From Pseudovirgaria hyperparasitica (taxonomy: Eukaryota > Ascomycota > Dothideomycetes > Acrospermales > Acrospermaceae), in assembly GCF_010093815.1 (NCBI RefSeq), contig NW_022985550.1, positions 1,501,074 through 1,565,073 on the forward strand: a DNA stretch of 64,000 bases, written 5' to 3'. The notes beneath the pieces were generated by a model. It was not told where the DNA came from. It saw only the letters and a program-made list of their open reading frames with translations, and ran no database searches. Numbering within the stretch: the first letter of the stretch is position 1; every line of letters starts with the position of its first letter. Shown here one piece after another: positions 60,088-60,290 of the stretch. The translations under genes and the position numbers were made by a program.

Positions 60088-60290
60088 CTAAGCGGGATTA
60101 GTAGCTCTTCACGGGGAGAGGGAAACAGTTCATGATCCTTTCGCTCGCATTATCGAGACGCAAGTTCGGCCGTATAATCTCAGAACGAGTCCTCGGCAGT
60201 ATCGACCATCTCTGTCTGCAGATGCAGCAGGTGGATAGCAGTCTCTGCCAGAACTCGAACACCGGCTCATGCTAAGATTACCTGGTTTAC
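60088..60290 (-). other. 5' leader intron of THI4 with two tandem donor sites
   Basis: On the minus strand a donor AAG|GTAAAC (G at 60290) and a second CAG|GTAATC (G at 60281) stand 9 bases apart. They are followed by the TPP aptamer, a CTACTAAT branch site (60097-60104) and the acceptor CGCTTAG ending at 60088, ten bases before the ATG at 60077. Splicing would thus remove the whole aptamer, as in known fungal thiamine genes. Which donor is used is not visible. Confidence 0.75.
60131..60275 (-). promoter_or_regulatory. TPP (thiamine pyrophosphate) riboswitch aptamer
   Basis: The minus strand carries the hallmark CTGAGATTATACGGCCGAAC (60164-60183) and then CTCGATAATGCGAGCGAAAGG (without its last base, 60137-60157). 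Helices match the TPP fold: P1 60267-60271 with 60131-60135 (CATGA/TCATG); P2 60263-60266 with 60069-type partner at 60169-60172 (GCCG/CGGC); P3 60253-60257 with 60186-60190 (CGAGT/ACTCG), carrying a long extension between, as is usual in fungi; P4 CTT/AAG; and P5 CTCG/CGAG closing the ATAATG loop. It sits inside the leader intron of THI4, which is the expected place in filamentous fungi. Confidence 0.95.

Follow-up and report, generated by a model that had tools for sequence, protein, structure and literature searches.

A predicted TPP riboswitch in the THI4 leader of Pseudovirgaria hyperparasitica, with an upstream stretch complementary to the 3' half of the aptamer

Fungal TPP riboswitches and the layout of the THI4 leader

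In Type I fungal TPP riboswitches, the aptamer lies in a leader intron, two donors (S1 and S2) flank a uORF, and one acceptor precedes the coding exon (PMC5882874). In NMT1 (THI5) of Neurospora crassa, bases of P4 and P5 pair beside the proximal donor (PMC5882874); without TPP this donor is masked by aptamer bases, and with TPP the uORF is retained (PMC5882874, PMC7404189, PMC5997356, PMC6152003). The accounts in PMC7404189, PMC6152003, PMC10226581, and PMC10907184 are compatible with that of PMC5882874, which assigns the leader-intron riboswitches of THI4 to the same type as NMT1. The THI4 version has been described as not fully studied (PMC11900860), and our literature search found no description of the pairing strand in the N. 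crassa THI4 riboswitch.

Here we examine THI4, which encodes thiamine thiazole synthase, and its leader on the minus strand of the window, by which we mean the whole 64,000-nucleotide stretch of P. hyperparasitica DNA that was analyzed (Table 1). The leader element contains the conserved core of a TPP aptamer, comprising CTGAGATTAT (GAGAU, J3/2), GATAATG (UAAU, L5), and GAGCGAAAGG (GCG near J4/5) in a P1-P5 fold; GAGAU is the segment reported to recognize the TPP ring (PMC5882874). When 60271-60126 is folded alone, without the upstream strand, the minimum is the TPP aptamer with P1-P5. These core motifs and this fold identify the element as a putative TPP riboswitch aptamer, which is predicted to bind TPP. 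Its score against RF00059 (25.9 bits, E 0.0085) does not reach the Rfam gathering score of 54.3 bits, which is a curation cut-off and not a biological feature, and no RF00059 match across the whole window reaches that cut-off. The Rfam alignment puts the 5' half of the aptamer at 60206, and the fold and a layout by hand give 60271-60126. A search of the same genome recovered two more aptamers below the RF00059 cut-off, one of which (L002, 34.8 bits) precedes an NMT1 gene (Pfam NMT1, 1.7e-45); the third (L001) scores 47.0 bits. The sub-cut-off scores are likely due to the long P3. Fungus-specific models have been built (PMC11683625). The genome holds no other copy of the leader or of THI4, the single match to each being the locus itself.

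Table 1. Features of the THI4 locus in window coordinates; a slash within a sequence marks the exon-intron boundary
Feature	Position	Strand	Basis
THI4 (thiamine thiazole synthase) coding sequence	59046..60077	minus	Pfam Thi4 2e-111 and ORF
THI4 putative in-frame intron, 51 nt, GTGAGT...CATAG	59740-59690	minus	by eye
Riboswitch intron 3' end, predicted: branch-like CTAAT (60101), acceptor CCGCTTAG (ends 60088)	60088..60101	minus	splice-site analysis
TPP aptamer, P1-P5, putative	60126..60271	minus	RF00059 25.9 bits, E 0.0085, below cut-off; isolated fold
Aptamer P1	60271-60267/60135-60131	minus	fold
Aptamer P2	60266-60263/60172-60169	minus	fold
Aptamer P3, long	60257-60245/60199-60186	minus	fold
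Aptamer J3/2	about 60185-60173	minus	fold
J3/2 strand CTGAGATTAT, including GAGAU	60174..60183	minus	sequence
Aptamer P4	60164-60162/60139-60137	minus	fold
Aptamer P5	60157-60154/60147-60144	minus	fold
Proximal donor D2, CCAG/GTAATCTTAG, predicted to pair with J3/2	60272..60281	minus	sequence and fold
Proximal donor D1, CAAG/GTAAACC	60284..60290	minus	sequence and fold
Anti-aptamer strand, complement of aptamer 3' half (60183-60131)	60272..60331	minus	fold and shuffle tests
uORF start, ATGATG at 60330/60327	60282..60330	minus	isoform analysis
uORF cassette exon, predicted; 93 nt with D2, 84 nt with D1; after acceptor 60375	60282..60374	minus	splice-site and isoform analysis
Leader intron 1, predicted, 53 nt; donor CCA/GTAACG, branch-like CTAAC 60387, acceptor CACACAG	60375..60427	minus	splice-site analysis

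On predicted sites, the locus has the Type I layout: a candidate S1 at 60427, a uORF from 60330, S2 at 60290/60281, and an acceptor at 60088, with P4-P5 complementarity beside the proximal donor (60164-60155 with 60302-60291). Position 60427 is the best candidate for the distal donor, and it is a guess among several GT sites. A predicted splice from 60427 to 60088 takes out all seven ATGs between 60520 and the THI4 start. If, as predicted, the intron 60427-60375 is removed and a proximal donor (60281 or 60290) is joined to acceptor 60088, the mRNA keeps a uORF that extends 22 nt beyond the THI4 start, out of frame with that gene. The donor at 60290 (D1) is a second GT donor 9 bases upstream of the one at 60281 (D2), and an earlier note on this DNA had proposed that the switch chooses between the two. 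Their products are three codons apart and have an identical uORF frame and stop; the choice of donor is therefore without evident consequence, and we rejected it as a regulatory step. Judged from these splice products, the consequential choice would be whether the uORF exon is skipped, through use of the upstream donor, or included.

Two further observations concern this region. A second small uORF (MEIINSRLDN, 60416-60384) lies within the predicted 53-nt leader intron and stays in the mRNA only if that intron is kept. The 51-nt putative intron of THI4 is stop-free and in frame, so the ORF caller reads across it.

The locus resembles several described systems without coinciding with any one of them. 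Like N. crassa NMT1, it has a leader intron, a TPP aptamer, predicted masking of the proximal donor, and P4-P5 complementarity beside that donor; unlike in NMT1, the donor here is also predicted to pair with J3/2, and the predicted pairing spans 41 pairs, whereas PMC5997356 gives a small region in Neurospora. With the N. crassa THI4 riboswitch it shares the gene. In the TPP riboswitch of a long coding-region intron (PMC5882874, section 7), P1' likewise pairs with an upstream element when TPP is absent, but that element is about 500 nt away near the distal donor, whereas here the uORF start plays this part, in a leader intron and with roughly 200 nt between it and P1'. Strand-exchange riboswitches, of which the TPP class is named as an example, also combine an invading strand, a toehold, and a mutually exclusive aptamer (PMC10907184); there the expression platform lies downstream of the aptamer, whereas here the invader would be upstream and carry a splice site. 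A literature search, with most subscription papers outside its reach, found no description of a donor pairing with J3/2. The THI4 leader switch appears to belong to a known kind of system, the leader-intron TPP riboswitch with predicted masking; it may be a variant in its J3/2 contact and in how long its helix is.

Complementarity between the upstream stretch and the aptamer

The earlier note had drawn attention to a match between a proximal donor and the aptamer, and the pairing is present as claimed: 60281-60272 (GTAATCTTAG) and 60183-60174 (CTGAGATTAT) are antiparallel complements at 10 of 10 positions, with 8 Watson-Crick pairs and 2 G-U pairs (60274-60181 and 60281-60174). The aptamer strand of this match is entirely inside J3/2, P2' beginning at 60172. 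When the 28-nt donor region was dinucleotide-shuffled 5000 times, a run of 10 pairs with the aptamer 3' half arose in 0.54% of cases; counting both strands of the window, 3.5% of 7482 GT sites have such a run. Among GTAA/GTGA 10-mers, 41 of 890, the actual site counted, pair as strongly with the 3' half. Taken alone, the donor 10-mer is modestly unusual and is weak evidence; with 41 of 890 sites equaling it, we rejected it as sufficient evidence.

In the predicted ligand-free fold, this 10-mer is one end of a longer, imperfect helix between 60331-60272 and 60183-60131, which has 41 predicted pairs (39 Watson-Crick, 2 G-U) and spans the leader from the uORF start to the donor. On the aptamer side, the helix takes up J3/2, two bases of P2', the P4-P5 strand, and P1', which is nearly the whole 3' half. 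Its duplex energy is -40.3 kcal/mol, compared with -17.7 +/- 3.2 for dinucleotide shuffles, none of which was as good (0 of 2000; best shuffle, -34.5), and its net cofold gain is -24.8, compared with -6.3 +/- 2.7 in shuffles (0 of 1000 as good). Without the donor 10-mer, the helix has an energy of -30.9 against -15.7 +/- 3.0 in shuffles, and again none of 2000 reached it. When the stretch was locally aligned with the reverse complement of the aptamer 3' half, the score was 33, while the shuffles score at most 27 (0 of 2000). When the leader was scanned in 37 steps from 60560 down, z fell below -3 in five of them, all in 60352-60257, with the best at -6.1.

A control on raw sequence, uncorrected for composition, found that 18 of 7992 stretches of the window pair equally well with the 3' half; five of these are the aptamer's own complement, and the 13 outside the aptamer locus equal the helix in strength with G+C uncorrected. 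We also shuffled the upstream stretch in its full context. None of 400 shuffled contexts reached 41 pairs (maximum, 33), at least 9 J3/2 bases were caught in 11 of 400, and P1 and P2 stayed intact in 107 of 400, whereas the native sequence keeps neither. Overall energy, a less telling measure, was as low as native in 30 of 400. The inverted complementarity between the leader stretch and the aptamer 3' half is real and significant.

Two other arrangements were considered and rejected. A copy of the aptamer in direct, non-inverted orientation within the leader is equaled in score by 104 of 500 shuffles, and 414 of 500 shuffles pair with the 5' half of the THI4 aptamer as well as the upstream stretch does. 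Relatives were sought in viral_contigs and genome_contigs. A THI4 protein search gave 1 pattern match in the former and 16 in the latter, none of them confirmed, and the aptamer DNA pattern had 0 matches in viral_contigs. A looser aptamer pattern matched 26 times in genome_contigs and 4 times in viral_contigs; 29 of the 30 matches are without the L5 motif TAAT.C within 30 bases, and the sole match with this motif is in a bacterial contig (L018). By our own estimate for 17 fixed bases, about 30 chance matches are expected in genome_contigs, so all 30 were set aside. No fungal relative was found in viral_contigs or genome_contigs.

Predicted folds without ligand and with the aptamer forced

When the segment 60430-60078 is folded without ligand, the donor-J3/2 pairs form at a mean probability of 0.87-0.99 in all eight settings (four energy sets at two temperatures), in a fold that excludes the aptamer. 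These calculations support the proposal of the earlier note that the J3/2 strand would mask a donor when TPP is absent. The same pairs form at 0.68-0.98 in three short segments starting at 60291 or 60300; in the segment 60291-60120, from which the partner of the P4-P5 strand is missing, the value is 0.73-0.88. P3 is retained in the ligand-free fold. The same proposal had J3/2 acting rather than P4-P5, which does not fit the predicted fold: both are used, the P4-P5 strand pairing in the same helix with the exon side of donor 60290. The J3/2 contact is thus predicted to add to the known P4-P5 pairing and not to replace it. At D1, GUAAA forms an internal loop in the ligand-free fold, and the exon side is paired with the P4-P5 strand. 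In the longer segments without ligand, the GU of this donor is for the most part free (0.89-0.96), so the masking of this donor would depend on the surrounding helices.

Forcing the aptamer fold on the segment 60430-60078 costs 9.9-12.2 kcal/mol. The binding energy of TPP is of about the same size, and the two states are therefore plausibly balanced. With the aptamer forced, the mean unpaired probability of donor 60281 rises modestly in six of six segments, from 0.23-0.27 to 0.37-0.53, and its GU is still paired elsewhere in four of the six. At donor 60290 the starting value of 0.56-0.57 becomes 0.71 in four segments, 0.59 in one, and 0.10 in the longest. The branch/acceptor stretch 60103-60088 becomes less open in four of six segments, is unchanged in one, and opens in one; lower openness at this stretch would fit the branch-site repression described for NMT1 (PMC7404189). 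Release of the donor by TPP, another part of the earlier proposal, was not clearly reproduced. Since the forced bound folds are unclean, this step leans on analogy with NMT1 more than on the folds.

A proposed switch, its alternatives, and the other aptamers of the genome

We favor, at somewhat better than even confidence, the reading that the locus is a fungal TPP riboswitch, of the type that sits in the 5' leader and controls alternative splicing, and that it masks its proximal donors without TPP. The gene, the aptamer core, the complementarity and its significance, the predicted ligand-free fold, and the uORF outcomes of the possible splices are its direct basis. When TPP is absent, 60331-60272 would pair with J3/2, part of P2', the P4-P5 strand, and P1'. 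This helix would disrupt the aptamer and bury the proximal donors, and the spliceosome would take the upstream donor, for which 60427 is the best candidate. The whole uORF region would then be spliced out and THI4 produced. When TPP is bound, J3/2 and P1/P2 would be held in the aptamer and the proximal donors freed, so that the uORF exon would be kept in the mRNA; the retained uORF, overlapping the THI4 start out of frame, would lower THI4 translation. The donor-J3/2 helix is probably a toehold: the empty aptamer leaves J3/2 unpaired, and TPP holds this segment, such that ligand and splice site would compete for the same bases. We infer the use of the donors, the response to TPP, and the order in which the toehold acts, and the direction of switching is taken by analogy from the published NMT1 logic.

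Three other readings bear on this proposal. According to one, the canonical parts alone matter, with P4-P5 (perhaps P1') pairing with the donor flank as in Neurospora and the J3/2 match being incidental to an invariant GAGAU and a donor that reads GTAATC. The P4-P5 strand does pair with 60302-60291, the helix remains significant without the donor 10-mer, and the 10-mer is common by itself (41 of 890). However, the donor-J3/2 pairs persist in the segment that lacks the P4-P5 partner, so that by calculation they carry much of the switch, and contexts that catch at least 9 J3/2 bases were rare among the shuffles (11 of 400). We regard this reading as unlikely. We think it similarly improbable that the fold in the cell differs, with P3 and the aptamer forming first during transcription and the long helix either going unreached or being background inverted complementarity. 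It is true that the predictions are equilibrium folds of naked RNA, that 30 of 400 shuffled contexts have an equal overall energy, that the donor is not cleanly freed in the forced bound folds, and that no relatives were found in the contig searches. Against this, the complementarity exceeds all 2000 shuffles and spans the uORF start to the donor, and P3, being kept in the ligand-free fold, need not be undone. A switch that picks between the tandem donors 60290 and 60281 would agree with the finding that, without ligand, the GU and intron side are directly paired at donor 60281 only, but given the shared uORF frame and stop and products just three codons apart, we consider it very improbable.

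The other two aptamers of the genome offer a comparison for the proposed switch. In NMT1, J3/2 is not paired with the site that most resembles a donor (1491, GTGAGA). Leader bases 1427-1476 pair with the 5' half of the aptamer and donor 1491 in a 41-pair hairpin (L002:1427-1538), thus involving the opposite half from THI4. Because a C-rich strand faces a G-rich one, 8 of 500 shuffles equaled this hairpin. A weak GT at 1426 in NMT1 pairs with the last four J3/2 bases at a probability of 0.25-0.35, and its exon side pairs with P2' at 0.47-0.68. At the third locus, the stretch 1437-1500 forms no helix with either aptamer half, 496 and 351 of 500 shuffles being equally good. The GT at 1411 there could form six pairs with J3/2-P2', but the probability of this match is 0.01-0.14 and it is absent from the minimum fold. 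The best-scoring stretches against the 3' half reach z -3.3 among 38 in NMT1 and -3.1 among 66 at the third locus, and neither touches the donors discussed here. By these predictions, full J3/2-donor pairing occurs in one of the three aptamers of the genome, with a partial echo in NMT1. The gene adjoining the third aptamer might encode a transporter; two stretches of it were compared with Pfam and gave no match at E 10. By eye, the aptamer apparently lies within an intron of this gene.

A more far-reaching interpretation is possible, which we offer tentatively and are inclined to doubt. The uORF exon may carry a full-length anti-aptamer, a strand that runs between the uORF start codon and the donor and imperfectly complements nearly the whole aptamer 3' half. 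The donor itself would be paired to the ligand-binding J3/2, so that TPP and the splice site would compete. NMT1 in this genome would then be a mirror solution, its leader pairing mainly with the 5' half, and anti-aptamers would have had separate origins on the two halves, perhaps through inverted duplication.

Fungal TPP riboswitches are natural cases of metabolite-controlled splicing. If the long helix is real, ligand and splice site share bases, and the mechanism would be testable by a few point changes. The contrast between THI4 and NMT1 within one genome would then show how expression platforms evolve around an invariant aptamer.
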